In this document: piece after piece, positions 8,468-64,000 of the stretch
Layout of the letters: each line of letters begins with the position of its first letter
Numbering within the stretch: position 1 is the stretch's first letter
From: Verrucomicrobiota bacterium
GTDB taxonomy: Bacteria > Verrucomicrobiota > Verrucomicrobiia > Chthoniobacterales > Chthoniobacteraceae
Assembly (NCBI GenBank): GCA_009885995.1
Contig: VFJQ01000092.1
Coordinates: 1 to 64,000, forward strand
Length of the DNA: 64,000 nt
Direction of reading: 5' to 3'
The notes under the pieces: model-generated
Told to the model about the DNA's origin: nothing
The model's database searches: none
What the model saw: only the letters and a program-made list of their open reading frames with translations
Position numbers and translations under genes: made by a program

Positions 8468-11400
8468 CCCACCCGACCGTCGAAATCCTCGAAGCGCGCA
8501 TCGCCCCGGCGAACCTGTTCGATGGGCACACGCTGCTTTTCACTGACGCCGACGGCGACGAGGTGAAAGTCGTGTTCAGCAAGGATGTCTTCACCGGCAC
8601 TGATGAAGCGCAGCTCGCGAAGGCGAACGCGGTGTTCACTTTCGATGCGGGCGACGTGGCGCACGACGTGACGACGGCGCAGCAGCTCCAGCTCATCGAT
8701 TTGACGGAGCTCGGCGCCATCGCGAAGGGCGTGGGGATCACCATCACGGCGACGATGAAGCCCGGCGGCGACGGCTTCGTCGATGTGGGCGCGATCGATG
8801 CGACGGACGTGTCCGCGGGGAAGATCGTGATCGACGGCGACCTTGGCCAGATCGACGCGGGCGGCTCCGGGCTGAAGATCGGGCTCGCCGGGCTGACGGT
8901 GAAATCGCTCGGCCAGCGCGGCACAGCCACGCAGGCGGTGGGCGGCAACCTCGTCAGCGGGATCGTTGGCGAACTGACTTCGCTCGTCGTGCTCGACGAT
9001 GTGAAGGAGGCGCGCCTGACCGTGGCGGATGGACGCAGCATCTTTGGCGAGGTCACCACGTTCGCGAAGATCGGCAGCGTGAAGATCGGCGGCTCGCTCA
9101 TCGGTCGCGCCGCAGTCGAGACGGCGAGCAACAGCACGGGCTTCATCGAGTGCCAGCGCGACATCGGAGCCGTCGTGATCGGCACGGACGCGGCGGACGG
9201 GGTCGTCGGCGGAGGCGGCACGAATTCCGGGCGGATCAGCGCGGGCGGGAAGATCGCGAGCGTGAAGATCTCCGGCGACATCACGGGCAGCGCGGGCTTG
9301 AGCAGCGGCACGGTTTTCAGCATCGGCGGCACCGGCCCCGTGACGATCGGCGGCAGTCTGGCCGGTGGATTGGGCGACAGCAGCGGCGTGGTGCAGAGCA
9401 ACAAGACCATCGGCGCGGTGAAGATCGGGACCGCGGCCGTGGACGGCATCTTCGGCGGTGGCGGGAGCTTCTCCGGGCGCATCAGCGCAAATGGAAAACT
9501 CGCGAGCGTCGTCGTGTCCGGCAACATCACGGGCGGCGTGGGCGCGACGAGCGGCTCGATCCTCGGCAAGGGCGGCATCGGTTCCGTGAGCATCGGCGGG
9601 AGTCTCATCGGCGCGGCGGCGGCGGACACGGGCCGCATCGACTCCGATGGCGACATAGGCTCAGTCGCCATCGGCACGGATCTCGAGGCCGGAGCGGTGG
9701 GCAGTATCGTCGGCGGAGGCGGCGCGAATTCCGGTCGCATCAGCGCGGGCGGCAAGCTGGCGAGCGTCGTCGTTCTCGTCGATCTCGCGGGCAGCGGCGG
9801 GACGAAGAGCGGCTCGATCTTCGGCAAGAACGGGATCGGCGCCGCGACCGTGGGCGGCAGCGTCCTCGGCGGCGCGGGCGAGAACAGCGGCCTCATCGAA
9901 TCCGATCGGGACATCGGTGCCGTGCGCGTGGGGTCCGACGCGGCGGACGGGATCACCGGCGCGGCTGGGCGCAATTCCGGGCGGATCAGCGCGGGTGGGA
10001 AGCTCGCGAGTGTGAACATTTCCGGCGACGTGAAGGGCGCGCTCGGCGTGAACAGCGGTTCCATCTTCAGCAGCGGCAGTGTGGGCACGCTGAGCATCGG
10101 CGGCGACCTCGTCGGCGGGGCGGGCGAGTTCTCGGCGCGCGTGCTCACGTTTTCCAACGTCGCGAACATAACGATCGGCGACGACATCATCGCCGGCACC
10201 GGCGCCGGCAGCGCGACGGTGTATTCGCTCGGCACGATCAAGAAGACGCTCGTGAAGGGCGACATCGACGGCACCACCGCGACCTCCGGTGCAAACTCCG
10301 CGGGCATCTTCGCGACGAACCTCACGCTGGTGACGGTGAATGGCAGCGTGCTCGGCGGCGCGGGCGTGGGCTCCGGTTTCATCCAGGCCGGCCGCACGCT
10401 CGGCGCTGCACCGGTCCTCACCACCCCGGCCACCGGCGTGACCGTCGGCATGAACGTGGCCGGCGGTGCGGGCGATGGTTCGGGCGCGATCGTCGCGGGC
10501 GGCATGGCGCATCTCGTCGTGGTGAAGGGCAACCTCACCGGTGGCGCGGGGCGGCAGAGCGGCGTGGTCTTCACCGGAGCCGATGTGCTGCTCACGGGCG
10601 ATCTGCGCAGCGCGATTGTCGGCGGCAAGATCGAGGGCGGCACGGGCGACAATTCCGGCGCGATCATCGCTGGCGGTGCGCTCGGCAGCGTGACGATCGG
10701 TGGCACGGCGACGGCGGCGATGGATGTGCTCAAGGGCGGCGACGGCGATTTCAGCGGCGCGGTGACTTCGCGCGGGAAGATCGGCGTCGTGAAGATCACC
10801 GGCAACGTGCTCGGTGGGGCGGGGGACCGGAGCGGCGCGGTGCTCGCGTCCGAGCGGACGACGGCGAGCGGCGAGTTTGCGGGCGACATTGGGCGGCTCA
10901 CGATCACCGGCCACCTCACGGGCGGCGCGGGTGCGAAGTCCGGCTTCATCCACGCGGACGGCGCGATCGGGAAACTGACGACCGGCGCGTGGGAAGGCGG
11001 CACCGGCGCCGATAGCGGCGGACTGCGCAGCGGCGATGGTTTCATCGGCACGGGCAATGTCGCATCGATCAAGATCCTCGGCACGCTCGCGCAGGCCGCG
11101 ACGACACCGGGCGCAGGCTCGGCGAGTTTCGTGATCGGCGGAAGGCTGGCCGCGTTCACGGTCAGCGGCGCGACGAGCGACGCGGCGATCCGCGTGGGCG
11201 AAGACGCGGGGAGCCTGAGCTTCGGCGGCAACGTGACGGACACGACGGTGACGGCGCGCGGCATGGCGGTTCCGCTCGCGAAGTCGGACGTGGCGATCGG
11301 CAAGCTCAGCGTGACGGGCAACGTGAGCGGCTCGTCTTTCCTCGCGGGCTACAGCACAGCCGGTGCAGCGGTGAATCCGAACGCGCAGATCGGCGCCGTG

Positions 11401-11703
11401 AACGTGACGGGGAACTGGACTGCGTCCGATCTCCTCGCCGGTGTGGCCGAGGGCACGGACGCGGGCTTCGGCAACGAATTCGACGTGAAGGCGCCGGGCG
11501 TGGATTTCCCGATGATCGTCTCGAAGATCGCGAGCGTGGTGATCGGCGGCAGCGTCGCGGGTGCGGCTGGCGAGCACTTCGGCTTCGTCGCGCAGGTCGT
11601 GGGCAAGATGAAAGTCGGCGCGACGACGTTTGCGCTCAGCGCGACTGCCGGCCAGGTGTTCGACGTGGTGCCCGGCGTCTCGATCCGCGAAGTGGCGCTG
11701 TAA
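8464..11703 (+). CDS. Large repeat-containing surface protein with N-terminal LEARIAPA motif
   Basis: MTHPTVEILEARIAPANL N-terminus; tandem GGGGxxSGRISAGGKxASVxxSGxI units. ATG overlaps the preceding stop (ATGA). Confidence 0.85.
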   Translation: MTHPTVEILEARIAPANLFDGHTLLFTDADGDEVKVVFSKDVFTGTDEAQLAKANAVFTFDAGDVAHDVTTAQQLQLIDLTELGAIAKGVGITITATMKPGGDGFVDVGAIDATDVSAGKIVIDGDLGQIDAGGSGLKIGLAGLTVKSLGQRGTATQAVGGNLVSGIVGELTSLVVLDDVKEARLTVADGRSIFGEVTTFAKIGSVKIGGSLIGRAAVETASNSTGFIECQRDIGAVVIGTDAADGVVGGGGTNSGRISAGGKIASVKISGDITGSAGLSSGTVFSIGGTGPVTIGGSLAGGLGDSSGVVQSNKTIGAVKIGTAAVDGIFGGGGSFSGRISANGKLASVVVSGNITGGVGATSGSILGKGGIGSVSIGGSLIGAAAADTGRIDSDGDIGSVAIGTDLEAGAVGSIVGGGGANSGRISAGGKLASVVVLVDLAGSGGTKSGSIFGKNGIGAATVGGSVLGGAGENSGLIESDRDIGAVRVGSDAADGITGAAGRNSGRISAGGKLASVNISGDVKGALGVNSGSIFSSGSVGTLSIGGDLVGGAGEFSARVLTFSNVANITIGDDIIAGTGAGSATVYSLGTIKKTLVKGDIDGTTATSGANSAGIFATNLTLVTVNGSVLGGAGVGSGFIQAGRTLGAAPVLTTPATGVTVGMNVAGGAGDGSGAIVAGGMAHLVVVKGNLTGGAGRQSGVVFTGADVLLTGDLRSAIVGGKIEGGTGDNSGAIIAGGALGSVTIGGTATAAMDVLKGGDGDFSGAVTSRGKIGVVKITGNVLGGAGDRSGAVLASERTTASGEFAGDIGRLTITGHLTGGAGAKSGFIHADGAIGKLTTGAWEGGTGADSGGLRSGDGFIGTGNVASIKILGTLAQAATTPGAGSASFVIGGRLAAFTVSGATSDAAIRVGEDAGSLSFGGNVTDTTVTARGMAVPLAKSDVAIGKLSVTGNVSGSSFLAGYSTAGAAVNPNAQIGAVNVTGNWTASDLLAGVAEGTDAGFGNEFDVKAPGVDFPMIVSKIASVVIGGSVAGAAGEHFGFVAQVVGKMKVGATTFALSATAGQVFDVVPGVSIREVAL
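9232..9990 (+). repeat. Tandem coding repeat, ~246-258 bp period (SGRISAGGK motif)
   Basis: Codon CGN of GRISAGGK/GRISANGK at 9232, 9478, 9736, 9982 (spacings 246, 258, 246). Confidence 0.9.
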
Positions 11704-41482: not shown

Positions 41483-44400
41483 ATGAAAGCCTCCCGTGTG
41501 TTCTGCTGCTTCGTCCTGTGGCTCACGTCCCTGTTGCCCACCCTCGCTGCGCCGGGAGATCTCGATCTGCTCGATACGACGATCGTCGGCGCGACGGTGA
41601 ATGGCACGGTGCTGCAGCCGGATGGAAAGGTGATCCTCATCGGCGAGTTCAGTTCGGTGCTCGGCGTGGCTCGAAACAACATCGCGCGGCTGAATGCGGA
41701 CGACACGCTCGACCTGGGCTTCGATCCGAATGCCGATGGGGAGGTGCGCGCGGCGGCGGTGCAGGCGGATGGGAAGATCGTGATCGGCGGGGTCTTCACC
41801 ACGCTCCAGCCGAATGGCGCTGGGGCGGCCACGACGCGGAATTTCGTGGCGCGGCTGAACCCGGACGGGTCGCTGGACGCGGGCTTCGATCCGAATCCCG
41901 ACGCGGCCGTGACGAGTCTCGCGCTGCAGGCGGACGGGCGGGTGTTAGTCAGCGGGCAATTCACCGCCGTGCAGCCGAATGGGGCGGCCACCCCGACGAC
42001 GCGGAACCGAGTCGCGCGGTTCCAGCCGGATGGGACGCTCGATGCCGTCTTCAACCCGAATGCGAATGGGACGGTGCTGGGGCTGACGGTGCAGGGGGAT
42101 GGAAAGGTGCTGCTCGGCGGTCAGTTCACGACCATCCAGCCGAACGGCGCGCCGAGCGTCACCGCGCGCAGCCGGGCGGCGCGGGTGAATGCGGACGGTT
42201 CGCTGGATGCCACCTTCGATCCCGTGGCGAATAGCGACGTGTTCGGCTTCCTCGAGCAGGCGGATGGGAAGGTGCTGCTCTACGGCCTCTTTACGGTGCT
42301 CCAGCCGAATGGCGCTACCACGCCGGCGACGCGGAACCGGATCGCGCGGCTGAATGTGGATGGGACGCTGGATGCGGGCTTCGATCCCAATGCGAGCAAC
42401 GCCGTGCGGAGCCTGGCGCTCCAGGCGGATGGGAAGGTGCTGCTCGGCGGACAATTCACGACCCTCCAGCCGAATGGCGCGGTCGCGGCCACGACGCGCA
42501 GTCGGCTGGCGCGGGTGAATCCGGACGGGACGCTGGATGCCGGCTTCGATCCCGCGCCCGGCACGCAGGTCAACGGCGTCGTGCTCCAGGCGGATGGGCG
42601 CGTGTTAGTCATGGGGAACTTCGGCCAGCTCCAGCCCAACGGTGCTCCCGCGCCCACGAACCGCAGCCGGCTGGCGCGGCTCCAGAACGATGAGGCGACG
42701 CAGACGATCTTCACGGAGGGCTCGACGCAGGCCTTTTGGCAGCGGGGCGGCGCGGGGCCGGAGCTGAGCCGGGTGACGTTCGAGCTGAGCGTCGATGGCG
42801 GCGTGAACTGGACCCCGCTCGGCCCCGGCACGCGCATCGGCACGACGCCGGACTGGCAATGCACCGGCCTGAGCCTGCCCGAGGGCGGCAAGCTGCGGAC
42901 CCGCGGCGTGGCGCTGGGCGGCCTGCGGGATAGCACCTCTAGTTTGATCGAGCAGGTGGCGACCTTCGGGCCGGGGGCGCTCACGGATTTGAACGGGGGC
43001 GTGGAGATCGGCATCGTGTCGGCGGCGGCGGTGCAGGCGGATGGGAAGGTGGTCATCGGGGGGGCTATTCACGAGGGTGAACGGGCAGCCGCGGCGGAGC
43101 CTCGCCCGCTTGAATGCCGACGGGACCGTGGAGAGCACGACCACTTTCAACCCCGGCACGGGCGTGGATGGCCAGGTGCTCGCCGTGGCGGTGCAGGGGG
43201 ACGGGAAGATCGTGATCGGCGGTTTCTTCACGAGCGTGGATGGGCAGACGCGCCGGGGCATCGCGCGGTTGAATGCGAACGGGACGGTGGAGAGCACGGC
43301 GACGTTCAACCCCGGCACCGGGGTGCTCGGCGGCGTGTATGGCCTCGCGGTGCAGGGGGACGGGAAGATCGTGCTGGTGGGGAACTTCATCAGCGTGAAT
43401 GGGCAGACGCGTGGGCAGGTGGCGCGGCTGAATGCGGACGGGACGGTGGAGAGTCTGGGGACTTTCAACCCCGGCACGGGCGCGAGCGGCGGGGTGAATA
43501 CTTTTGCGATCAATAGTGTGGCGGTGCAGGGGGATGGGAAGATCCTGCTGGCTGGCGACTTCAACGCGATCAACGGGCAGACGCGCAATCGCCTCGCCCG
43601 GCTGAATGCGAACGGCAGCTTGGAGAGCACGGCGACTTTCAACAACGGCACCGGGCTCGCGGGCGGCTCGAACCAAGGCTCCACCCGCGTGCTCTTGCAG
43701 GGGAATGGACAAATCCTGGTGACGGGAGATTTCGCCAGCGTGGATGGCGTGCCGCATGGCGGCATCGCGCGGCTCAATCCGAATGGCAGCATCGAGAACC
43801 CGGGGACATTCAATCCCGGCAGCGGGGTGAACTTCCTCATCCGCAGCGCGGCGGTGCAGGGCGACGGGAAGATCGTCATCGGGGGCAGCTTTTCCTCGGT
43901 GGATGGTCTGTCGCGCCGCAACGTCGCGCGGCTCAATGCCAATGGCAGCGTGGAGAGCGCGGGCACCTTCGCCATCGGCACGGGCACGAATAGCGTCGTG
44001 GATAGTGTCGTGGCGCAGGCGGATGGGAAGGTGCTGATCGGCGGGCTGTTCACGGTGGTGAACGGGCAGCATAGGAATGCGCTGGCCCGGCTGAATGGGG
44101 ACGGCAGCTTGGAGAGTCCGGGCGGCTTCAATATCGGGACGGGAGTAGCTGGTGGCCTGAGCGGGAGCGTGCTGGGCCTGGCGGTGCAGCCGGACGGGAA
44201 AATCGTGCTCGGGGGTTACTTCACGAGCGTCGGCGGGCAGCCGCGCAAAAATATCGCCCGGCTTAATCCCGATGGCAGCGTGGAAAGCACGGCGACTTTC
44301 AACCCCGGCGCGGGACCCAATGACCTCGTGTATTGCCTCGCGGTGCAGCCGGATGGGAAGGTGCTGCTCGGCGGTTCCTTCACGACCGTGGACGGGCAGC

Positions 44401-47045
44401 CGCGGGGAAATATCGCGCGGCTCCATGCCGATGGCACGCTGGAGAGCACGGCGACTTTCAATCCCGGCACCGGGGCAAACTCCGTCGTGTTTTCGCTCGC
44501 GGTGCAGGCGGATGGGAAGATTCTGCTCGGGGGGTTCTTCACCACGGTGAACGGACAGCCGCGGGGGAATATCGCGCGGCTCCATGCCGATGGCACGCTG
44601 GAGAGCACGACGACTTTCAATCCCGGCACGGGCACGGACAACTTCGTCAATAGTGTGGCGGTGCAGACCGACGGGAAGATCCTGCTCGGGGGAAATTTCA
44701 CGACGGTCGATAGCCAGCCGCGCGGCGCGATCGCGCGGCTGCTGGCCGATGGCAGCGTCGAGGGCACGGCGACTTTCAATCCCGGCACGGGAGCGACGGG
44801 CGGCAATAACTTCTTCGTTCAGGTCGGGAGTGTGGCCGTGCAGGCGGATGGGAAGATCCTGCTCGCGGGCGATTTTACCACCGTCAATGGCCAGCCGCGC
44901 AATCGCATCGCCCGGCTCCTGGCGGATGGCAGCCTGGAGAGCACGACCACCTTCAATCCCGGCAGCGGCGTGGATGGCCGGGTCGCCGGACTGGGCCTGC
45001 AAGCGGATGGGAAGATCGTGCTCTGTGGGCAGTTCAGCAGCGTGAATAGCCAGCCGCGCAACGGCATCGCCCGGCTCCTGCCGAATGGGAGCTTGGAGAG
45101 CCCTCTCAGCTTCGATTTTGGCAGCGGGTTGTCTTTCGGGCTCGAGTGCCTGGCCGTGCAGGCCGACGGGTCCATCCTGCTGGGGGGAACGTTTAGCACG
45201 TTGAGCGATCAGCCCCGCCAGAGCCTGGCCGCGCTGGCGAATGGCGCGGCCAGCCAGGCGATCCTCCTGCCGGATTTCACGCAGGTCTTCTGGCAGCGCG
45301 GCGGCACGGCGCCGGAGCTGAGCCGTGTGACTTTCGAGTTGAGCAGCGATGGCGGCGCGAGCTGGACCTTGCTCGGCCCCGGCACGCGCATCGCGGCCAC
45401 GCCGGATTGGCAAAGCCCCGCCGCGCTAACCCTTCCCCCCGGCGGGCTCCTGCGCGCGCGCGGCGTGACGATGAGCGGCTACAACGGCAGCAGCGCCAGC
45501 CTCGTCGAGCAGGTGACCGCGTTCGGCGCGGTGGCGAACCCGGTCGTCAACACCGGCGGCCCGGTCGTGGCGCCGGACCTGCCGCCGGGCACGAAGTTCC
45601 TCGATTTCAAGTCGGCACCAGACATCGGCGTGGCGAGCGGGCGGATCGTGACGACCGATGGGCGGAAACTCGCGGCGGTCTTCAACGAGCGTGGCGAAGT
45701 GCTGCTCCACGCGCAGCAGACGATGCCGGTCGGCGGCGGGGAGATGAGGGTGATCGCGAAGCTGGCGGCGCCCACGGGCGATGCGGTGCTAGCCACGCTG
45801 GACCGGCGCAGCGGCGCGACGGCGGCGGATGACCAGGTGCTCTTCGGCGGCTTGCAGGCGGGCACGCCGAAGGCAATGGCGCGCAAAGGCCAACTGCTCG
45901 CCGGGCTGCCGGGGGTGAAGCTCAAGAGCTTTCTGACGCTGGACGGAAACGGGCAGACGACCTTCTTCTCCAGCACGCTGAATGGTGCCGGGGTGACCGG
46001 GCGCAACAACACGGCGATCCTCGCGGCCAAGCCGCCCAGCGGGAGCGCGGGCTTGCCCGAGTCCGGCGCGATGGAGAGCGAAGTGCGCGTGCTGGTGCGC
46101 AAGGGGGACATCGTCGATGGCAACACCGTGCGCACCGTCGCGACGCTGGTGGGCTCGGCCGGCACGCTGGCCGAAGGCCGCTGGCGCGGGGGACCGAACT
46201 CGCTCGGTGTGCGGCTGACTTTCACGGACAAGACGCAGGCGCTTTACCTCATCCCAGCGGAGGCGAGCGGTCCCGCCGACTGGCTCTTGATCGGCAAGTC
46301 CGGCACGCTGGCGGGCGTGGATTTGCCGGCGGCGGAGCTGCGCAGCTTCCAACTGCCGGCCCATGCGCCGGGCTCCACGGTGTTCGATTCGTTGCTACGG
46401 GTCGGCGTGGGCGGGATCGTGCGGCAGAATAGCCGGGCGGTCTTCGACGCGCAGGGTGTGGAGACGCGCGGTCCGATCTCGCTGCGGCTGCTGGCGCAGA
46501 CCGCCGGGCCTGCGCCGGCGCAGTCGAACGTGCAACGCTTCCTCAACACGCTCGCCGGACTGGGACGCGCCTCGACGGTGATCGCGAATGCCACGCTGCC
46601 GGGGCAGGCGGTCTCGCGCGGGACGATCTTCGACGCGCGGCATGACGGAATGCTCGTGCCGATCGCGCGCCTCGGCGAGGCCGCGCCGGGGGGCGGGCAG
46701 TTTGCGCGGTTCGTGTCGGTGGCGAAGCCGGATGGGCCGGGCTACGGCGCGCTCGTCTCCGCGCTGCTGCGGGTCAGCGGACGCGACGGGGTGTCCGTGC
46801 GCAACCGGTCTGCCCTTTTCGGGCGGGATAGCACCGGGACCATGCGCCGCCTGCTGCGGGCGGGCGATCTGCTCGAATCCGCCGGCCCGGGCTCGACGCT
46901 CAAGCCCGTCCGGAGCTTCGTCGCGCTCGCCGCCGCCGCCGGCTCCATCGGTGCCGCTCGCGGCTACGATGCGGCGGGGCGCGTGAACGTGCTGGTGACG
47001 TTCACCGACCGGACGCAAGCCGTGGTGAGCGTTCAGGTGCCGTAG
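41483..47045 (+). CDS. Delta-60 repeat surface protein, split by +1 frameshift at a 7-G tract (ORFs 41483-43516 and 43041-47045)
   Basis: LQADGKVLLGGQFTT...RxRxARLNxDGTLDAGFDPNA repeats continue across the frameshift. Deleting one G restores a single ~1853-codon ORF. Confidence 0.88.
41768..42595 (+). repeat. 165-bp tandem coding repeats (delta-60 type)
   Basis: Asp codon of QADGK/QADGR/QGDGK at 41768, 41933, 42098, 42263, 42428, 42593; every spacing is 165 bp. Confidence 0.95.
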
Positions 47046-52995: not shown

Positions 52996-54135
52996 ATGCG
53001 ACGCCTTTTCTCCCGGACCGTGCCCGACGTCCCTTTGCTTAAGAAAACTCCTCTTCATGATGAACACGTCCGGCTCGGTGCGCGGATGGTGGATTTCGGC
53101 GGGTGGCACATGCCGGTGCAATACGGGGGCATCCTCGAGGAACACGCGGCAGTGCGCTCGGCGCTCGGGGTGTTCGACATCTCGCACATGGGGCAGTTCT
53201 TCGTGCAGGGCGGAGGAGCGCTCGACTGGCTGAACCGGCTGCTGACGAACAACGTCGCGCGGCTCGGGATCGGCGAGGGGCAATACACCTTCCTGCTGAA
53301 CGACGCGGGCGGGGTGATCGACGACCTCATCATCTACCGGCTCGCGGACGCAGATTACCTGCTCGTGGTGAACGCCGCGAAGATCGACGAGGATCTGGCG
53401 TGGATGCAGTCGCACCTCGCGGGGGATGTGGTCCTGGAAAATCACAGCGCCACGTGGTGCGGCATCGCGATCCAAGGGCCGCGGGCGGCGCAGCTCTTCG
53501 ATTCGTTCTTCGGCGGGAAGCACTCGCGCCCGGCGCGGAACCATCTGCTCGCGGTGCAGATCGACGGCCTGCCTTACTATATATGCCGCACCGGCTACAC
53601 GGGGGAGGATGGGTTCGAGGTCTTCTGCCCCGCGGAGCGCGCGGTGAAGTCGTGGAACGATGTGCTGGCCCGCGGCGTGCAGTTTGGCCTGAAGCCATGC
53701 GGCCTCGGCGCCCGCGACACGCTGCGCCTGGAGATGTGCTACCCGCTCAATGGCTCGGACCTCGCGCCCGATCGCACGCCGATCGAGGCCGGGCTCTCCA
53801 TTTTCGTCGATATGGGAAAGCCGGACTTCATCGGCCGTGCCGCGCTCGATCAGCAGAAGACGGGCGGCGTTCCACGCCGGCTCGTGCCGCTGAAGATGGT
53901 CGGCGCCGCGCCGCCGCTGCGTTCGCACTATCCGGTGCTCAAGGACGGGCAGCAGATCGGGGAGCTGTGCAGCGGCAGCCTCAGCCCGACGCTGAAAGTG
54001 GGCATCGGCATGGCGTATGTGCCCACCGAGTTTGCGCGCATCGGCGAGGAGTTCGAGATCGATATCCGCGGCCGGCGCTACCCGGCGCGCGTGGAAAAGA
54101 AGCCGTTTTACCGACCACAACCATCCGACCAATGA
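52996..54135 (+). CDS. gcvT: Glycine cleavage system aminomethyltransferase T
   Basis: LHDEHVRLGARMVDFGGWHMPVQYGGILEEHAAVR; RTGYTGEDGFEVF; GLGARDTLRLE. Confidence 0.97.
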   Translation: MRRLFSRTVPDVPLLKKTPLHDEHVRLGARMVDFGGWHMPVQYGGILEEHAAVRSALGVFDISHMGQFFVQGGGALDWLNRLLTNNVARLGIGEGQYTFLLNDAGGVIDDLIIYRLADADYLLVVNAAKIDEDLAWMQSHLAGDVVLENHSATWCGIAIQGPRAAQLFDSFFGGKHSRPARNHLLAVQIDGLPYYICRTGYTGEDGFEVFCPAERAVKSWNDVLARGVQFGLKPCGLGARDTLRLEMCYPLNGSDLAPDRTPIEAGLSIFVDMGKPDFIGRAALDQQKTGGVPRRLVPLKMVGAAPPLRSHYPVLKDGQQIGELCSGSLSPTLKVGIGMAYVPTEFARIGEEFEIDIRGRRYPARVEKKPFYRPQPSDQ

Positions 54136-54515
54136 GCAACGTCCCCGCTGACATCCGCTACACCTCCAGCCACGAATGGGTTCGCCTTTCCGGCGACTCC
54201 GCGACCGTGGGGATCACCGACCACGCACAGGCCGAGCTGACCGACGTGGTTTATGTCGAGATGCCGAAGCTGGGCACCGTGGTGAAGGCCGGGCAACAGG
54301 TCTGCGTGGTCGAGAGTGTGAAGGCGGCGAGCGATATTTACGCACCTGTCGCCGGCACGGTCGCCGCGGTGAACGAGGCGCTGGTAAGCAATCCTGCGCT
54401 GCTCAATACCGATCCTTTCGGTGAAGGCTGGATCTTCCAACTCAGCGGCGTGAGCGCCGACGAAGTCGCTGGGCTCGCGGCGCCGGAGGACTACCGGGCG
54501 CAGATCGGCGGCTGA
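54132..54515 (+). CDS. gcvH: Glycine cleavage system H protein
   Basis: RYTSSHEWVRLSGDSATVGITDHAQAELTDVVYVEMPKLG; VESVKAASDIYAPVAG. Confidence 0.98.
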   Translation: MSNVPADIRYTSSHEWVRLSGDSATVGITDHAQAELTDVVYVEMPKLGTVVKAGQQVCVVESVKAASDIYAPVAGTVAAVNEALVSNPALLNTDPFGEGWIFQLSGVSADEVAGLAAPEDYRAQIGG

Positions 54516-54537: not shown

Positions 54538-56526
54538 ATGAGCGCGCTCGTTCCCACGCACGATTACCGGCGCACGGGTTTTCACCCGCCGGCGAAGCTC
54601 CTCCGCGGGCTCGATGGGCTGGTGAATGGGGCGATCGGGCGCTACCGGCGGCGCGCGGGGGTATTCGAGCAGCTCAAGCTGGACGCGACCGAGGTGGATC
54701 GGCAGGCGATGGAGTGGAAGGAGCTTTCCTCCGGCAAGCTGAAGCAGCGGCTGCACGAGTTTCGGGAGAAGTTTCGGCGCGGCGGCCGGGAAGCGGACGC
54801 GAGCCTGCTGCCAGCGCTGGCGGCCATCCGGGAAGCGAGCGAGCGGGAGCTGGGGATGCGACCGTTCTTCGTCCAGATCATCGGCGCGCTCGCGATGCAC
54901 CGCGGCTGCCTCGCCGAGATGGCGACAGGCGAGGGAAAGACGCTCACCGCCGGGCTGACGGCGGTGCTCGCCGGGTGGACGAAACGGCCCTGCCACATCG
55001 TGACGGTGAACGATTACCTCGTCGAACGTGACGCCAAGCGGCTCCAACCGCTTTACGGCTTCTGCGGCGTGAGCGTCGGCTGCGTGACCGGCGCGATGGA
55101 CCCCGCCGCACGGCAGCAAGGGTATGCGGCCGATGTGACCTACACGACTTCCAAGGAGCTGCTCGCCGACTTCCTCCGGGACCGCCTCCGGCTCGGCCCC
55201 ATGCACCAACCGACGCGCCGGCTCATCCGGCGCTTGCTGGGTGCACGGGAGATGGACGGGCTCGTGATGCGCGGCCTCCACATGGCGATCATCGACGAAG
55301 CGGACAGCGTGCTGATCGACGAGGCGGTCACGCCCTTGATCATCTCGACGACCCGCGAGAACGCCTTGCTCAAGGAAGCCGGCCTGACGGCGCAGACGAT
55401 CATCGCCGGCCTCGTCGAAGGGGAGCACTACCGGCGGAACGTGCGGTTCAAGGAAATCGAGCTGACGGAGGCCGGGCTGGGGGAGATCGAGCGTGGTGCT
55501 GCCGAGCTGCCCGGCGTGTGGCGCGGGGATGCGCGCCGCCTCGAACTGGCGATCCAGGCGCTCGTGGCGCGCGAGTTTTTCCACCGCGACCGGCAATACA
55601 TCATCGAGAAGGGGAAGGTGGTGATCGTGGATGAATTCACCGGCCGCCCGATGCCGCAGCGCACCTGGCGCGAGGGGATGCACCAGGCGATCGAGGCGAA
55701 GGAGGGGCTGGCGATTTCTGACCCTTCCGAGACGATCGCGCGGCTGAGTTTCCAGCGGTTCTTCCGGTGCTTCCACAAGCTTGCGGGCATGAGCGGCACG
55801 GCGCGCGAGGCGGCGGGGGAGTTTTGGCAGATCTACCGCCTGCCCGTCGTCACGATCCCGACGAACCGCCCGTGCATCCGCGAGCAGTGGGCCGACCGCG
55901 TCTTTTCCACCGAGTCGGGGAAATGGGAGGCGGTGGCGGACGAGATCGCGCGGCTGCATGCGACGAGCCGGCCGCTGCTGATCGGCACGCGCAGCGTCGC
56001 CGCGAGCGAGCGGCTCGGGGGCATGCTGCGCGAGCGGAACCTGAATTTCGCGCTGCTGAACGCGGTGCGCATTGCGGAGGAGTCAGCCGTCATCGCGACA
56101 GCCGGCGATCCGGGCCGAATCACGATCGCCACCAACATGGCCGGTCGCGGCACCGACATCCTGCTCGGTCGTGGCATCGCTGCGCAGGGCGGACTGCACG
56201 TGATCGCGACCGAGCGGCACGAATCGGGGCGAGTGGATCGCCAGCTCTTCGGTCGCGCCGCCCGGCAGGGAGATCCCGGCAGCGCGCAGGCGTTCGTCAG
56301 CATCGAGGACGAATTGATCCAGCGATACCTCCGCCCGGCAGTCCAGCGCATCCTTGTCGAGGCGGTGACGCGCCGTTTCTCGGGCTGGGAGCGCATCGCC
56401 CGGGCAGCCTTTTATGAGGCCCAGCGCCGCGCCCAGCAACTCGCCTACAAGCAGCGCCAGACCGTCATGCGCGCCGACCTTTGGCTCGGCGAAGCGTTGT
56501 CCTTTGCGGGCGAAGAGGTCGTTTAA
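54538..56526 (+). CDS. Short SecA-like (accessory) preprotein translocase ATPase
   Basis: AEMATGEGKTLTAGL, VTVNDYLVERDA, IIDEADSVLIDEAVTPLIIS, EFTGRPMPQRTWREGMHQAIEAKEGL, TNMAGRGTDILLGRGI, GRAARQGDPGSAQ. 662 aa with no C-terminal Cys zinc-binding tail. Confidence 0.9.
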   Translation: MSALVPTHDYRRTGFHPPAKLLRGLDGLVNGAIGRYRRRAGVFEQLKLDATEVDRQAMEWKELSSGKLKQRLHEFREKFRRGGREADASLLPALAAIREASERELGMRPFFVQIIGALAMHRGCLAEMATGEGKTLTAGLTAVLAGWTKRPCHIVTVNDYLVERDAKRLQPLYGFCGVSVGCVTGAMDPAARQQGYAADVTYTTSKELLADFLRDRLRLGPMHQPTRRLIRRLLGAREMDGLVMRGLHMAIIDEADSVLIDEAVTPLIISTTRENALLKEAGLTAQTIIAGLVEGEHYRRNVRFKEIELTEAGLGEIERGAAELPGVWRGDARRLELAIQALVAREFFHRDRQYIIEKGKVVIVDEFTGRPMPQRTWREGMHQAIEAKEGLAISDPSETIARLSFQRFFRCFHKLAGMSGTAREAAGEFWQIYRLPVVTIPTNRPCIREQWADRVFSTESGKWEAVADEIARLHATSRPLLIGTRSVAASERLGGMLRERNLNFALLNAVRIAEESAVIATAGDPGRITIATNMAGRGTDILLGRGIAAQGGLHVIATERHESGRVDRQLFGRAARQGDPGSAQAFVSIEDELIQRYLRPAVQRILVEAVTRRFSGWERIARAAFYEAQRRAQQLAYKQRQTVMRADLWLGEALSFAGEEVV

Positions 56527-56654
56527 TCCCGGGCCACGCAGCGCTGCCCATTCGGGTGAGAAAATTTCACGTTTAGGACGTTGACGGGCTTGCATGACTC
56601 CGCTGTCTTTGCCCTCTCTTCTCCCGCACCAGAACCCGATCGAACTGTCCGAGC

Positions 56655-59600
56655 TTGAAACCCAAACGTCCATCACCCGGTAACCTTTTCGAGCTGCAAG
56701 CGCTCGAGCCGCGTGTGCTGTTGTCGGCGGATTTCCTCGCGATGGGGGCTGTGGATGATCACGACATCCAGCCCGGAAAGGCAGCGGACGAAGTGGTGTT
56801 GGGCGCCAGCGAAGCGGCGGAGATCGGAGCAAAGGGGAACGTGGTGGCATACGATCCGGCGGCGCAAGTTGACGACATTTTCACGGGACTTGTGGAGGAA
56901 TCTTCCAAGCCCGATGCGGGGAAAATTCTGGCGGATGAAACGGCCGCGCCTGATGACCTCAGCACGGGTGATAAAGACTCGATCTCGCCGAGCTCGGATG
57001 AGGTCAAATCGGGGGATGAGACGGCGATCGATGCCGACGAAACTTCGACCGATTCGGCGGATGCTGGTGACCCTCAATCGGACTTGATCACGGCCCTCGA
57101 GGCGCTCATCGCGAGCGCTGAGGAACAGCCCGCGACCGGCACCGAAACGGTCACGACAGTCGTGCCTGAAGGTGCGACCGGAGCGGCGGTCGAGACGCTC
57201 CAACCGCTCGCGACGGTAGCGCCGGCGACGGGCGAAACTGACTCGGAAATCACGCCGGGCACGCCCGACGTGGACGCGACGAATTCACTGACCGATCAGC
57301 TCACGGAAACGCTGAAGGCTGCGAACGGTCCACCCGCGTCGGAGGACTCCGCTTCTGTTGACGAGCCTTCGCCCACGAATCCTGCAGAAAATGAGGATTC
57401 GGCGGAGGTTATTGTGTTTTTGGGAAGCCGGCCTTTGCCGGTGAATTCGGCGGAAAATGAGGGCGCGGCGACGGGTGGGAACGTGCATCTCACGCCGGAA
57501 CATCCGATGGTCGCGGATGTGGTTCTGACGATCGATGCGGGGAGCAAACTCTCGGGTTCCGGGACGGTCTTCGGCAGCGTGGTGATCCGTGGAACACTCA
57601 GCCCGGGCAACTCGCCGGGCGTCGGTAATTTCGCCTCGCTCCAGCTCGATCACAATGCGGTCACGGTCATCGAAATCGCCGGCACCGGCGGCGCAGGCGC
57701 GGCGAACGGGCACGACCAAATAAATGTTTCCGGCGCGATCACGTTTGGGGGCACTTTGAGTGTATCGTTGCTCGGCGGTTTCGTGCCGGTGCTCGGGCAG
57801 ACTTTCGACGTGCTGAGTTACGGCTCGAAGACCGGTGCGTTCGACTTTTTCACGGGCCTCGCGCTCGGCGGCGGCTTGATGCTCCAGCCGGCGTTCACGG
57901 CGACCGGGATGACGCTCGCGGTCGTCCAGCACTCCGCGAACATCACCCGGCCGGTCGTGTTCATTCCGGGCTTCGCCGGCACCTTCGCTGCGGATGGCTC
58001 GCTGGCCGGCTACGACGAATGGCTGCTCACTCGCGGCCTCGCCCCGGACAAGCTCGCGCTCGATCCGTTGCTGGGCACTTACTCGAACCTCATCCAGTCG
58101 CTCCAAAACGTCGGCTACACGCTCGGGGTGGATTTGTTCGTCGCGAACTGGGACTGGCGCGTGCCGATCGCGGCGCAGGACGGCACGGCGGATGGGAACC
58201 TCGCGAATGTCACGGCGGCGGGCATCACGGACACCACCTACGCGACGGGAGTGGATTATCTGGGCTACTCGCTGGACCAGGCGGTCAGCGTGTGGAGCGC
58301 GCTCGGCAGCGGGGCGCTCGCCTCGGTCGATCTCATCACCCACAGCACAGGCGGCCTGCTCGCCCGGGCTTACATCGAGAGCGCGGCCTATGGCGCGACC
58401 TACGCGGGCAGCACGAAGACCTTGCCGAGCGTCTTTAACTTCCTCGAAGTCGCCGCCCCGAACCAGGGAGGCTCCTCGACTTACGAGTTCCTGCAAAACG
58501 ACTTCAGCGAGGGGCCCGGCAGCCGGGTGGGCGGCCGCACGGCCCACGCCGCCTACAAGCGAGTCCTGGAAGGGGCGGCCATCTTGAATCCCGACCTTTC
58601 GACCATCTCGGCCGGCGACCTAGCGGCTCAGGGTGCGAATGCGCAGCAGTGGTTCATCGATCAATACATCGGCGCGGCGCGTGACCTCGTGGGCACTTAC
58701 GCGATGCTTGATCTCGACGACAACGGGACCTTCGAGCCCGTTGCGACCGGCAGCGCATTTGAGAACAAGTTCCTCAAGGATCTCAACGGCGGTGCCGATC
58801 CGAACGCCTTCGCCGACCGCGTTCTCGGCACCACGAACGCCTTCTTCTCGGGCGAGACCGAGACCTTCGACCGCCTTGTGCTGGAGACCGGCTTCCAGCC
58901 CTCGCTGGGCCGGCTGAACGAAATCCTGCCGCTCGACCGCTACATCGGCAGCGTTCCCGGCCCGACCACGCAGTGGCTCGCGGAAAACACCAGCAACGCC
59001 ACCGGGCCGGAAGGCGACGGCACGCTTTCGGTCCTCTCGGTCGTCGGACAGTTCCTCCCCGACACCGCGCGGCAGACCAGCGGCAAGCTCACGCTCACGC
59101 AGCTCACGAGCGCCCAGGCAGGCGGCGACGTGGGGCATCAGGAGCTGGTGAACAACGTCTTTGCCCAGCAGAAGATCATCCAAGCCCTCACCGGCACGCT
59201 GCCCGCAGCGTCGCTCATGGCGACCGACCTGCGCATCAGCAAGATCGAAGGTTCGGTGAAGCTGCTGTTCTACGGCATCGTCAACCCGCTCGACCTCGCC
59301 AGGGAGGTCTATGACCGCGTGAAGACGGGCATCGCGACGCTCTCCGCGACGAGCGGACCGGATTTCGAGACGACGGTAAGTTTCATCTTCAACGCCGTGG
59401 AAACCCTCACCAGCGGTGCGGGGGTCTCGGAGCGATTTACGGAAGCCGGTGCAGATGTCGCGTTCGGCGTCGCCTCCACGAGCGGTGGCGCGCTCGACTT
59501 CGCCTACCTCGGCGTGAGCGGGGCGGAAGTCTTTGCCGGCTCGGGTGGGCAGGGCGTCGAACTGTCGGACGGCAAGCTCGGCCTCGTTTTCTTCTCCGAC

Positions 59601-62600
59601 GCGACCTACGCGCTGAGCGTCTCTGGGGCGGCGAGCCTCGTCGGCGTGTCGGGCACGAAGCTCTCCGGCACGATTGCGCTGCGCTCAAACAACTCCGGCT
59701 TGGTCGATCAGACCATCGCCATCACCGGAATCGACTCGGTCACGCTGACCTTCGCGGAAGATGAGCAGTATTCGCTCGGCGGTTCGCTGACGCTGGTGGT
59801 GGCGGGGCAGAAAATCACGGGCGCCTTCGTTTTCACCAAGAGCGGCAGCAATGTGACCATGACGATCGACGGGCTGGAAGTCAGCTTCGGCGACGGATCG
59901 GGCACGTTCGTCGCCGCGCGGGCGGAAAACGCCACGTTTACGCTCAGCGGCGGCGCGATCACCGCCACGGTGAACAACGCGAGCCTCGACGCCGCGCTGC
60001 CGGGCGTGGACTTCAGCGGCGCCTTCACCCTGCACCTCGACAGCGCTGCGGGCACGGTGAGCGTGACCGGCGGCACTTCGATCAATGTGCTCGGATCGAC
60101 GCTCAGCGGTTCGTTCACGGTCACGCAGATTACCAGCGGCGGCGCGCAGGTCGTAAATGTCCACGTCTCCGGCTTGACGATGGACGTTGGCACCGCGGTC
60201 CACGTCACGGCCGGCACGGGCGACCTGCTGATCGATGGCTCGGGCATCGCTGCCGACTTCGCCGTCACCGCCAACGCGAGCTTGTCCTTCGATTCGACGT
60301 CGAGCGCGCACGTGCAGGTCAACACCCACCCCACCTCTGAGCTCGGCCTGCCGGCCGGGCCCTTCGTCCGTGTCGAACTGACCAACGTCATCCTCACGCT
60401 AGGCACGAGCACGCTGGCGGGCGATTTCGCTTTCGATCAAGCCACGCAGCCCGACGGCGCGAGTATCACGCGCATTGCCGTCACCGACCTCGACATCACC
60501 TCCGGCACCGCGGGCCTCATGAATGGCGAAGGAGCGTTCGTCCTGCTTCCGTCGGGCATCGCCGGGTTCGCCAGTGGCGCGGTCAGCGGCAGCTACGGCG
60601 GCGTTGCGCTGAGCGGGAATGGCGGCGTGCGGATCAACAAATCCGGCCTCTCGGTCGATGAGACGATCACAGTCGGCGGGCGCACGCTCACGATCCGTTT
60701 CGACGACGGCGAGACCACGCTGTTCTCGTTCTTCGCGGAGAACCTTACGCTCAAGATCGGCGACTTCATCACGATCCAAGGCAGCATCGCTTTCACCAAC
60801 ACCGGCAGCGAGCAGACATTCGCGGGCGAAGGGATCGAGCTTTTCCTCGGCCGCGGCCCGCCCCGGCTGGAAAATAACGACCTGAATCCGCTCGCGCAGG
60901 GCGTCCTCCTGCGTGACGCGACGATCGGCCTCATCCGCAGTGCGTCCGGCGACGCGCTCTTTGCGATGGGCACGGTCGAACTGGTGGGCATCAGCGGTGT
61001 GACCGTGAGCGGCACGGCGCTAGTGCGGGTGAATACGACGACGGCGAATGTGGATCGCACGCTCACATTTGGCACGGATCACGAGGTGGTGGTGATGGCC
61101 ACGGCGGGGACGAAGGAGTTTGTGGCGAAGAACCTCGTGCTCGAAGTCGCCGACCAGTCCTTCACGGGCGACTTTAGTTTCACGGCGGCGGCGAACGAGA
61201 TCACGGTGACGGCGAGCAACGTCACCGCGGCGATCGGCGACGGGACGAACGACCTCGTCGCGCTCAGCAACGGCAACGGCACGCTGCACCTCACGAATGC
61301 CGGTGCGTCCGCGGACCTCTCGGTCCACGCGACGATCGACGTGCCCGGCGCGAGCTTCGATGGCAACGTGGCGCTGCAAATCGACGCGGAAGGCGTGCGC
61401 GTGGAGATCGGCGACATGACGACACCCGCCACGCTCACGATCGCGGGCCAGGAACTCAGCGGCACCTTCGTCGTCGAGCAAATTACCGACGAGACCGGCG
61501 CGACCGTCACGCGCATCACCGCGAGCGATGTGGAGCTAAGCCTCGGCAGCTTCGTGAACGTCACCAACGGCCGCGGCACTATCGTCGTCCGTTCGGCGGG
61601 CATCGCGGCCTCGCTCGAGGCGGATGTCGCGCTCACCGGTCCGGCGTTGGGACTCACCGGCACCTTCGGCGTGAGCATCAACACGATGCCGACCGCGCTG
61701 AACGAGTCATTCCTCCTCGACGGCGAGATGGTCGCACTCGACCTGCCCGCCGGGCCTTACGTCCGCGTCGAGGCGCGCGGCGTCACGCTCAGTGTCTCGG
61801 GCCAGACGATCACCGGCGACTTCGCCTTCGAGCGCGTCACGCGCACCGATGGCACCGGCATCACGCGCGTCGGCATTGCGAACGCCGGGCTCACCCTTTC
61901 CGATGGCACCACGCCGATCGCCTCGCTCAGCGGTGCGTCCGGTGCCTTCGTGCTCGACGACGCGGCGACCGGCTTCGCCGGCAAGCTCAGCGGCAACGTG
62001 AGCGTGAACATCCCGGGTGTCTCGCTCAGCGGCGTGCTCGAGCTCCAACTCAACGACACCGCGCTCGACATCAGCGAGAGCTTCACCGTCGGCGGCGTGG
62101 TGGTCGAACTGGCCCTGCCCGCCGGCCCGTATCTGCGCCTCGCGGGCACGGGCGTGAGCCTCACGCTTCCGGGTGTGGAGTTGAGCGGCGACTTCTCGAT
62201 CGTGAAGTCGAGCACGCGCGTGCTGGTGAACATCAGCGGCGCGTCGGTCTCCTTCGGCAGCGGGGTGCTGCGGCTCGATGGTGCGTCGGCGAACTTCATC
62301 GTCAATGCGGGCGGCATCGCGGGCGCGCTTAGCGGCAACATCACGGTCGCGGTCCCGAATGTGAACTTCACGGGCGGATTCAAGTTCGAGTTGAACACGA
62401 TCGGCCTGGCGTTCCCGAGCGCCGACTTCGATTTTGGCACCGCGCTCCCGGGTTTCCCGGTGCCGCCGACGTTCGACATCCCGGTGGGCCACTTCGTGCG
62501 CTTCGCTCCGGTCATTCCGGCCATTCCGACGCCGATGCTGCCGATCCCGTCGATCGACATCCTCGGCGTGAAGCTCGAGGGCGACTTCAGCATCGAAGCC

Positions 62601-64000
62601 GACATCGACTTCGGCGGCGTCCGCATCGCGCTCGACGGCGTGTCGCTCGATCTCGGCGGCTACGTCACAATCACCGGTGCGAGTGGCGCCTTCCGCATTG
62701 GCCGTGGCGGTCTCGTCGGCAGCCTCGACGCGAACGCATCGATCAACATCCCCGGCATCGCGACCGTGATGGCCGACGTGAGCATCGACGTGAACACGAC
62801 CGGCTTCGCGGTGATAGAGAGCATCCCGCTCGGCACGGACCGCGTGGACCTCGATCTGCCGGCCGGGCCGTTCCTCCGCGTGGAAGTGACCGACTTCTCG
62901 CTCAATCTCGGCACCGCCTCGCTCGTGGGCGATTTCACCTTCCAGCAGATCACACTGCCCGACGCGACGACCGTCACGCACTTCGCCATCGCCGGCGCGG
63001 CGATCGAGTTCAGCGGCAACGGCATCACGAACGCCGAGGGCGCATTCGTCATCACCGCAGGCGGCATGGCGGGCATCCTGACCGGCGACATCGCGATCGC
63101 CGTGGGCGGCTTGAGCGGGCGCGCGGGCTTCCGCATCAACACCACGACCGGCGCGGTGGACGAGAGCATCGTCGTGGGCGGGCGGACGCTCCCGGTCGTC
63201 TTCAGCGCCACCGAAGTCGGCGCCGTGGGCGCACCGTTCTTCAACTTCTTCGCCGAGGATCTCGTGCTGAACATCGGCAATTTCGTCACGATCGAGGGCA
63301 CGGTGAACTTCGTGACCGGCGTCGGCCGCGACACCTTTGCCGGTGCGAACCTGCTCGTTTTCCTGGGCCAGGGCCCGGCGCGCCTGCCGAGCGGCGAACT
63401 GAACCCGACGGCGACCGGCGTGCTCGTGCGCGATGCGCGCGTCGGCATCGTCAAGATCGGCAGCACCTACGCGTTGAGCGCGACGGGGCTCGTGCAATTC
63501 GTCGGCATCAGCGGCGTGACGATCGCGGGACAGGCGACGGTGCTCGTGAACACGACGGGCACGATCATCAGCGAGACACTGACCTTCGCCGGCGACTCGA
63601 ACGATCCTGGCATCACGCTCAATTTCCCGACCACCGATACGGTCGCGAAACTCGAAGTGCTGAACGGCGAGTTGTCCTTCGCGGGCCAGACGCTCAAGGG
63701 CGACTTCAGCTTCGAGCGCGCGGGCAGCAGCACGCGCATCGGCCTGCTCGATGGTTCGCTCGATCTCGGCGGCGGTGCGCTCGTCGTGAGCGACATCGAG
63801 GGTGCGCTGCTCCTCACGTCGGCAGGCGTCGCCGGCCGCGTGAACGCGGACGTGGATGTGAATGTGCCGGGCGTTTTGCTCTCGAATGCGAAATGGACCT
63901 TTGCGATCAACTCGACCGCCGCGCGGGTCACCGAGTCCATTACGGTCGGCGCGACGACGGTGAGCTTCGATGTGCAAGCCGGACCTTATATGCGCGTCGA
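56655..64000 (+). CDS. Giant LEPR-XLL surface protein with embedded lipase/esterase-like domain and long beta-repeat array (incomplete at window edge)
   Basis: Hand translation from TTG 56655: KPKRPSPGNLFELQALEPRVLLSADFLAMG... open to 64000 (>2400 codons). In-frame TGA at 56595-56597 limits upstream extension. Lipase-like DLITHSTGGLLARAYIES; repeated LPAGPxxRVE...GDFxFE units. Confidence 0.9.
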   Translation, partial: MKPKRPSPGNLFELQALEPRVLLSADFLAMGAVDDHDIQPGKAADEVVLGASEAAEIGAKGNVVAYDPAAQVDDIFTGLVEESSKPDAGKILADETAAPDDLSTGDKDSISPSSDEVKSGDETAIDADETSTDSADAGDPQSDLITALEALIASAEEQPATGTETVTTVVPEGATGAAVETLQPLATVAPATGETDSEITPGTPDVDATNSLTDQLTETLKAANGPPASEDSASVDEPSPTNPAENEDSAEVIVFLGSRPLPVNSAENEGAATGGNVHLTPEHPMVADVVLTIDAGSKLSGSGTVFGSVVIRGTLSPGNSPGVGNFASLQLDHNAVTVIEIAGTGGAGAANGHDQINVSGAITFGGTLSVSLLGGFVPVLGQTFDVLSYGSKTGAFDFFTGLALGGGLMLQPAFTATGMTLAVVQHSANITRPVVFIPGFAGTFAADGSLAGYDEWLLTRGLAPDKLALDPLLGTYSNLIQSLQNVGYTLGVDLFVANWDWRVPIAAQDGTADGNLANVTAAGITDTTYATGVDYLGYSLDQAVSVWSALGSGALASVDLITHSTGGLLARAYIESAAYGATYAGSTKTLPSVFNFLEVAAPNQGGSSTYEFLQNDFSEGPGSRVGGRTAHAAYKRVLEGAAILNPDLSTISAGDLAAQGANAQQWFIDQYIGAARDLVGTYAMLDLDDNGTFEPVATGSAFENKFLKDLNGGADPNAFADRVLGTTNAFFSGETETFDRLVLETGFQPSLGRLNEILPLDRYIGSVPGPTTQWLAENTSNATGPEGDGTLSVLSVVGQFLPDTARQTSGKLTLTQLTSAQAGGDVGHQELVNNVFAQQKIIQALTGTLPAASLMATDLRISKIEGSVKLLFYGIVNPLDLAREVYDRVKTGIATLSATSGPDFETTVSFIFNAVETLTSGAGVSERFTEAGADVAFGVASTSGGALDFAYLGVSGAEVFAGSGGQGVELSDGKLGLVFFSDATYALSVSGAASLVGVSGTKLSGTIALRSNNSGLVDQTIAITGIDSVTLTFAEDEQYSLGGSLTLVVAGQKITGAFVFTKSGSNVTMTIDGLEVSFGDGSGTFVAARAENATFTLSGGAITATVNNASLDAALPGVDFSGAFTLHLDSAAGTVSVTGGTSINVLGSTLSGSFTVTQITSGGAQVVNVHVSGLTMDVGTAVHVTAGTGDLLIDGSGIAADFAVTANASLSFDSTSSAHVQVNTHPTSELGLPAGPFVRVELTNVILTLGTSTLAGDFAFDQATQPDGASITRIAVTDLDITSGTAGLMNGEGAFVLLPSGIAGFASGAVSGSYGGVALSGNGGVRINKSGLSVDETITVGGRTLTIRFDDGETTLFSFFAENLTLKIGDFITIQGSIAFTNTGSEQTFAGEGIELFLGRGPPRLENNDLNPLAQGVLLRDATIGLIRSASGDALFAMGTVELVGISGVTVSGTALVRVNTTTANVDRTLTFGTDHEVVVMATAGTKEFVAKNLVLEVADQSFTGDFSFTAAANEITVTASNVTAAIGDGTNDLVALSNGNGTLHLTNAGASADLSVHATIDVPGASFDGNVALQIDAEGVRVEIGDMTTPATLTIAGQELSGTFVVEQITDETGATVTRITASDVELSLGSFVNVTNGRGTIVVRSAGIAASLEADVALTGPALGLTGTFGVSINTMPTALNESFLLDGEMVALDLPAGPYVRVEARGVTLSVSGQTITGDFAFERVTRTDGTGITRVGIANAGLTLSDGTTPIASLSGASGAFVLDDAATGFAGKLSGNVSVNIPGVSLSGVLELQLNDTALDISESFTVGGVVVELALPAGPYLRLAGTGVSLTLPGVELSGDFSIVKSSTRVLVNISGASVSFGSGVLRLDGASANFIVNAGGIAGALSGNITVAVPNVNFTGGFKFELNTIGLAFPSADFDFGTALPGFPVPPTFDIPVGHFVRFAPVIPAIPTPMLPIPSIDILGVKLEGDFSIEADIDFGGVRIALDGVSLDLGGYVTITGASGAFRIGRGGLVGSLDANASINIPGIATVMADVSIDVNTTGFAVIESIPLGTDRVDLDLPAGPFLRVEVTDFSLNLGTASLVGDFTFQQITLPDATTVTHFAIAGAAIEFSGNGITNAEGAFVITAGGMAGILTGDIAIAVGGLSGRAGFRINTTTGAVDESIVVGGRTLPVVFSATEVGAVGAPFFNFFAEDLVLNIGNFVTIEGTVNFVTGVGRDTFAGANLLVFLGQGPARLPSGELNPTATGVLVRDARVGIVKIGSTYALSATGLVQFVGISGVTIAGQATVLVNTTGTIISETLTFAGDSNDPGITLNFPTTDTVAKLEVLNGELSFAGQTLKGDFSFERAGSSTRIGLLDGSLDLGGGALVVSDIEGALLLTSAGVAGRVNADVDVNVPGVLLSNAKWTFAINSTAARVTESITVGATTVSFDVQAGPYMRV
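60348..64000 (+). repeat. Diverged coding repeats with LPAGP(F/Y)xRVE motif and a ~2508-bp higher-order repeat
   Basis: LPAGP/QAGP codon starts at 60348, 61743, 62115, 62856, 63975; FFAENL/FFAEDL blocks near 60727 and 63244. Confidence 0.85.

Follow-up and report, generated by a model that had tools for sequence, protein, structure and literature searches.

Introduction

Secondary SecA_DEAD proteins, in which SecA_SW is absent or present only as a fragment, have been described in Planctomycetes, Verrucomicrobia and Proteobacteria (Kamneva, Poudel and Ward, 2015, PLoS One 10:e0129066, PMC4452313). Their genes neighbour those for HlyD, GAF-HlyD, Peptidase_M50-HlyD and occasionally OEP proteins, and the partners are sometimes found elsewhere in the genome. 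That study proposed the SecA as the ATPase that replaces an ABC transporter, suggested that the M50 protein may form a pore, and described the SecA wing as implicated in the interaction with SecYEG. One carrier of the locus given there is Methylobacterium extorquens AM1 (META1p2399-2402). No cargo was named, the broader biological role was called completely unknown, and LEPR is absent from the main text. The searchable literature that cites this paper or uses its terms yielded, besides it, only a 2017 study of environmental microbial co-occurrence, and a link to LEPR-XLL cargo was not found in openly searchable papers, with subscription papers and preprints outside the scope of the search.

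Here, we analysed a stretch of 64,000 nucleotides (the window) in which a short SecA-like gene lies directly upstream of a giant LEPR-XLL gene. The locus resembles that of PMC4452313 in having SecA_DEAD without SecA_SW and in its HlyD, GAF-HlyD and M50-HlyD partners, which are on another contig (C75) here and adjacent in relatives; the phyla and the gene order also agree, and the likeness is judged on these features.

Results

A shortened SecA with intact ATPase motifs

The short (secondary) SecA-like ATPase (54538..56526, + strand; 662 aa), which was assigned by Pfam/NCBIfam profiles and by its position in a tree, matches SecA_DEAD (313.9 bits), P-loop_SecA (180.5 bits) and SecA_PP_bind (84.4 bits) in Pfam. 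Its ATPase motif set is complete, with the Walker A motif MATGEGKT (aa 128-135; 54919..54942, +), DEADS (aa 253-257; 55294..55308, +) and MAGRGTDI, and the NBD2 motif reads TIATNMAGRGTDI (aa 529-541; 56122..56160, +). Across 23 relatives, the Walker A motif is unchanged but for one K/S swap at the last position, and the same 23 relatives have zero matches to SecA_SW and SEC-C. The protein scores 592 bits against the canonical SecA equivalog, below the cut-off of 800, and 378-542 bits against four NCBIfam SecA2 models (TIGR03714, TIGR04397, TIGR04221 and NF012136), far below all of their cut-offs (725-1100).

The wing domain and the two-helix finger of canonical SecA touch or feed SecY. In the AlphaFold model of the short SecA (pLDDT 88, pTM 0.86), the chain stops soon past a last long helix (aa 617-654; 56386..56499, +), which we read as the first part of the helical scaffold. 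Since the model ends there, the protein has no helical wing, two-helix finger or C-terminal linker by comparison with the established SecA structure, a natural shortening that is comparable to the artificial truncation in E. coli SecA-N68 (5K9T).

The same genome encodes a canonical SecA on contig C126 (995 aa from the first Met) with the C-terminal zinc tail CPCGSGKKFKSCC, so the short SecA is not its sole SecA. Of the 49 SecAs placed in a tree, 29 other short ones group with the window protein on one side of a branch (bootstrap/SH-aLRT 100/99) that was recovered in 100% of 200 bootstrap trees, and an earlier tree of 80 SecAs agrees. The clade spans Verrucomicrobiota, Planctomycetota, Pseudomonadota and Myxococcota. 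Two short SecAs (L053 and L079) fall just outside the clade and have the gene order OEP, SecA, HlyD, with GAF-HlyD and M50-HlyD downstream as well in L079; they may belong to a sister system or reflect an arrangement that came earlier.

The downstream gene encodes a giant LEPR-XLL protein

To our knowledge, the export route of LEPR-XLL proteins has not been defined, and the same holds for the largest bacterial proteins. The giant ORF begins 128 nt after the short SecA on the same strand, with a TTG start at 56655 and the sequence KPKRPSPGNLFELQALEPRVLLSAD, and its first 2,448 codons lie within the window as an open frame (56655..64000, +). The NCBIfam model NF012209 matches the leader motif LFELQALEPRVLLSADF (56688..56738, +; residues 12-28 of the protein) with 21.7 bits, above the curated cut-off of 17, and with 27.6 bits in a second search. 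When the contig was followed past 64000, the first stop was found at C91:124263, which gives 22,536 codons for the ORF as assembled in this 181-contig genome. The protein has no Cys in 22,536 aa and a net charge of -995, and Pfam finds PKD and RTX repeats toward the C-terminus and no families in the middle. A Cys-free, acidic protein with PKD/RTX repeats fits, as expected, a putatively secreted and calcium-folded product.

The initial annotation, made from the letters of the window, had described a shortened SecA with complete ATPase motifs and no zinc tail, 128 nt before a co-oriented ORF of more than 2400 codons with an N-terminal LEPR-XLL motif, and each of these points was confirmed: the Pfam domains and motifs are present, SecA_SW and SEC-C are absent, and the gap, the orientation and the profile match are as given above. 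Its suggestion that further components lie past 64000 did not hold, because the giant takes up contig C91 as far as 124263 and is not directly followed by a secretion operon. Metabolic and regulatory genes lie 3′ of the giant on C91, and about 13 kb further on there is a heavy-metal-efflux-like set.

Other clade genomes (G065, G068, G141 and G207) also contain LEPR ORFs, the longest with about 20,500 codons, and the LEPR ORF of locus L052 (Devosia insulae DS-56) has 9,695 codons. Two Planctomycetota genomes, G003 (L009) and G004 (L010), encode nine and ten LEPR-XLL proteins, respectively, on many contigs, so a single export operon may handle many cargos.

Partner genes are elsewhere in the genome

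The short SecA lies 22 nt downstream of genes that we take, from their recognisable sequence, to be the glycine cleavage T and H genes (52996..54515, +), and these occupy the slot held by the M50-HlyD gene in most relatives. The partner genes for HlyD, GAF-HlyD and PqqD-M50-HlyD are on contig C75 (L112, 6270-11033) with no SecA alongside, and their products match the family profiles with 910 bits (M50-HlyD) and 617 bits (GAF-HlyD). A second operon without SecA, on contig C30 (L113, 5244-9928), contains OEP, a divergent PqqD-M50-HlyD (741 aa) and HlyD genes. The genome thus has type I secretion parts in the form of HlyD modules on C75 and an OEP gene on C30. Scans of the window for Rfam families and for promoters gave none, and terminator-like sites were no more frequent than in shuffled sequence.

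Other repeat-rich ORFs are found in the window. One (8464-11703, +) encodes 1,079 aa starting MTHPTVEILEARIAPANLFDG, with an N-terminal LEARIAPA that resembles LEPR-XLL and no NCBIfam match, and may be another cargo or belong to another leader class. Two overlapping ORFs in different frames (41483-43516 and 43041-47045, +), both rich in delta-60 repeats, look like a single gene that an assembly error or a frameshift has broken.

A conserved operon and its linkage to LEPR-XLL genes

By clustering all ORFs around 33 loci, we defined an operon with the order OEP, HlyD, GAF-HlyD (~620 aa), PqqD-M50-HlyD (~715 aa), short SecA, sometimes an extra HlyD, and LEPR-XLL. In all clade loci but the window and L085 (28 of 30), the M50-HlyD gene lies immediately 5′ of the short SecA, accompanied by GAF-HlyD, HlyD and often OEP genes; the OEP gene is inside the operon of several relatives. 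Gene clustering found no ABC transporter in the 30 clade loci, and in motif scans of the loci ABC ATPases were seen only apart from the operon genes. A SapC-family gene (PF07277, checked in L031) stands beside exporter genes in L024, L031, L017 and L018.

Matched by contig identity and coordinates, a LEPR-XLL gene is in the same gene cluster in 18/30 clade loci; it is downstream in the window and in L012, L015, L017, L018, L019, L069, L075, L081, L082 and L084, upstream in L016, L031, L035, L039 and L052, and convergent in L020 and L028. Many of the clade loci outside these 18 are cut by contig ends. In 5 of 19 Verrucomicrobiota carriers (the window genome, G089, G095, G116 and G141), the LEPR-XLL giant directly follows the short SecA on the same strand, and the ORFs other than that of the window are at most 18,984 codons long. 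The rough chance of at least 5/19 genomes having SecA and LEPR side by side is ~4e-12, assuming 4 of 5,000 neighbour slots. These results show that the adjacency is conserved in other LEPR-XLL genomes.

Short SecA, M50-HlyD and LEPR-XLL co-occur across genomes

Of 289 Verrucomicrobiota genomes, 19 have the short SecA (E <= 1e-200), 24 have LEPR-XLL and 18 have both; LEPR-XLL is present in 18/19 genomes with the short SecA and 6/270 without it (Fisher p 1.4e-22). For the class to which the Pseudomonas locus belongs, 369 genomes gave SecA in 21, LEPR in 35 and both in 17 (17/21 carriers compared to 18/348 others; p 2.6e-16). Shared ancestry is ignored in all co-occurrence counts. Among 50 genomes chosen by locus, LEPR-XLL is present in 26/29 clade carriers compared to 0/19 canonical-SecA carriers, controls that come partly from other phyla and include small genomes.

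M50-HlyD (E <= 1e-150) exceeded the threshold in 18 Verrucomicrobiota genomes, all within the 19 SecA carriers. The 19th carrier, G231, seemed to lack the gene, but contig ends break it into pieces immediately ahead of the SecA; with G231 counted, M50-HlyD is present in 19/19 short-SecA genomes and 0/270 others.

A variable leader and a PqqD-like domain

A strict LEPR regex gave only four matches in the first loci and was too narrow; since the motif varies (LEDR, LEER, FESR, MEPR), relaxed patterns and NF012209 were used. The consensus over 57 proteins is E-x-L-E-P-R-[LIV]-L-L-S-A-D, usually 10-50 residues from the start codon. In these 57 proteins the region ahead of the motif is basic and a signal-peptide-like hydrophobic stretch is absent, with a best 15-residue mean hydropathy below 1.6 in most leaders.

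PqqD binds the leader of its precursor peptide. The N-terminal domain of M50-HlyD matches PF05402 (PqqD) in 10/16 members (best 2.5e-7), and its profile finds only PqqD proteins in the PDB (3G2B, 5SXY and 5VRD; best 3G2B, E 1.5e-4); the model of the domain has a beta-beta-beta-helix order. The window genome's own M50-HlyD copy, searched alone, gave no PF05402 match. In the M50 part, H210, E211, H214 and D313 are invariant in 16 sequences and both HExxH and NPLxRFDG are conserved; the C75 protein has HEFGH at 211 and NPLLRFDGY at 307. On the basis of the PqqD-like domain, the leader binding of PqqD and the conserved HExxH, we propose that the domain would read the LEPR-XLL leader and that the M50 site would clip it.

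Some LEPR-XLL operons lack the short SecA

Two clade genomes, both MAGs (G002 and G008), have the SecA and no LEPR match, and in a third (G029) the SecA is cut by a contig end; G698 was first scored as lacking LEPR and was found to carry the variant MEPRVLFSDG. We re-examined 24 genomes that have LEPR but in which no short SecA passed the threshold; 16 of them have an M50-HlyD gene. G268, G391 and G704 were removed from the LEPR-only group, as their short SecA is sub-threshold or cut by a contig end, and several other LEPR-only genomes have weak matches in short ORFs. LEPR-only genomes such as G551 are still left after this follow-up.

In G544, G628 and G688, the GAF-HlyD, M50-HlyD, HlyD and LEPR genes stand in a row and the short SecA is absent; G633 has the same row with a more distant M50-HlyD, and G528 has a similar set with a close M50-HlyD and a broken GAF-HlyD gene. 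The gammaproteobacterial loci L266, L267, L268 and L270 likewise contain GAF-HlyD, M50-HlyD, HlyD and LEPR without the short SecA, and only canonical SecA was found in their genomes, which shows that the short SecA is not universally required. In G562 (L213/L214) and G617 (L219/L220), giants with the leader LEPRLL[FY]DGAA precede HlyD, GAF-HlyD-like and divergent M50-HlyD genes, with no SecA, and the leader variant may track the presence of SecA. Taken together, these SecA-less operons make M50-HlyD the more constant partner of LEPR-XLL, with SecA present in most lineages and not in all, and they are the main evidence against SecA as the sole motor.

Discussion

The initial annotation had proposed that the short SecA is dedicated to the LEPR-XLL substrate, and this is supported by the conserved adjacency and the co-occurrence, with the qualification that some LEPR-XLL operons lack SecA. 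It had also proposed the motif as a targeting signal, for which the PqqD-like domain on the M50 protein is now a candidate reader. We consider it probable that LEPR-XLL giant surface proteins have a type-I-like system of their own, in which the short SecA serves as the ATPase, and the genomic case for LEPR-XLL proteins as the predicted cargo of the SecA/HlyD/M50 system is strong. Gene content, domain make-up, linkage, co-occurrence and the intact ATPase and HExxH sites were observed directly, and from these genomes we infer all functional steps of the exporter. The Cys-free, unfolded giant would be recognised via its N-terminal leader, which has no hydrophobic signal peptide and would be read in the cytosol by the PqqD-like domain of the inner-membrane PqqD-M50-HlyD protein. 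The short SecA, in place of an ABC transporter, would thread the chain, the M50 zinc site would probably clip the leader, the HlyD modules of the three proteins and an outer-membrane TolC-type channel would carry the chain outward, and the RTX repeats would fold once outside. Only tentatively do we suggest a non-Sec channel, formed by PqqD-M50-HlyD plus HlyD/TolC, through which the truncated SecA would drive chains that can exceed 22,000 residues in a single step, with an RRE-type domain reading the leader much as RiPP enzymes do with theirs.

The short SecA might instead work with SecYEG, as in Gram-positive SecA2-only systems, and help LEPR-XLL proteins across the inner membrane by that route, with the HlyD and OEP proteins acting from the periplasm outward only. 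Its model superposes best on the SecY-bound, substrate-engaged SecA of SecA-SecY-substrate complexes (5EUL and 6ITC; TM 0.82-0.83), and SecA-less operons exist, as if the housekeeping SecA could substitute. However, this closed-clamp pose may stem from the training of AlphaFold on SecA-SecY complexes, the wing domain and the two-helix finger are missing from all short-SecA members, and the LEPR-XLL leader has no hydrophobic core; we therefore regard a SecYEG-based route as somewhat unlikely. It is unlikely, too, that M50-HlyD, GAF-HlyD, HlyD and TolC form the whole LEPR-XLL exporter, with SecA as a dispensable aid that might, for instance, unfold the longest cargos or raise processivity on them. 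Such a role would suit the SecA-less loci with the same cargo motif and the M50-HlyD gene in 16 of the 24 re-examined genomes, but in Verrucomicrobiota the SecA and this M50-HlyD type always go together (19/19 vs 0/270), and no other ATPase is evident in the SecA-less set, which must have a replacement for SecA. That the LEPR-XLL and SecA genes are neighbours by chance or hitch-hiking, without a functional tie, would suit the position of the window SecA between glycine-cleavage genes and the giant, apart from its operon, but is highly improbable given the genome-wide co-occurrence, the ~4e-12 estimate above (4 of 5,000 neighbour slots) and the recurrence of the adjacency across phyla in downstream, upstream, convergent and divergent arrangements.

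With this link, the secretion system predicted in 2015 gains its first likely cargo, and two open questions, the exit route of the giants and the role of the SecA/HlyD/M50 locus, merge into one. A truncated SecA that works without SecYEG would be a new way of powering secretion, and leader reading by the PqqD-like domain would mean that the recognition of leader peptides reaches beyond small RiPPs to giant proteins. Compared to PMC4452313, the candidate LEPR-XLL cargo, the candidate PqqD-like reader, the quantified co-occurrence, the SecA-less variants and the extreme cargo size are new; we also count the split arrangement in the window genome as new, and the machinery itself was known as a prediction.

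Among other known systems, the SecA2 of Gram-positives and mycobacteria is similar in being a second SecA beside the canonical one, apparently for a subset of substrates, but SecA2 keeps domains that are absent from the short SecA, whose partners are HlyD, M50 and OEP proteins. Type I secretion (HlyB-HlyD-TolC) shares the HlyD modules, the OEP in many loci and the large RTX cargo; in contrast, the operons examined here contain no ABC transporter and have a SecA-like motor and an extra PqqD-M50 protein, and the conserved cargo motif is N-terminal. The RTX repeats near the C-terminus of the giant are compatible with the C-terminal uncleaved signal of type I secretion, and do not prove one. The N-terminal domain of M50-HlyD resembles PqqD and the RiPP recognition element in its leader-binding fold, but it is fused to a membrane metalloprotease and an HlyD module, and its leader binding is only predicted. 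The M50 part shares with site-2-protease-like metalloproteases the HExxH in a membrane helix and the NPxxxxDG motif. The giant itself belongs with the LEPR-XLL proteins (NF012209), scoring above the curated cut-off, and differs from them in its size of 22,536 codons.
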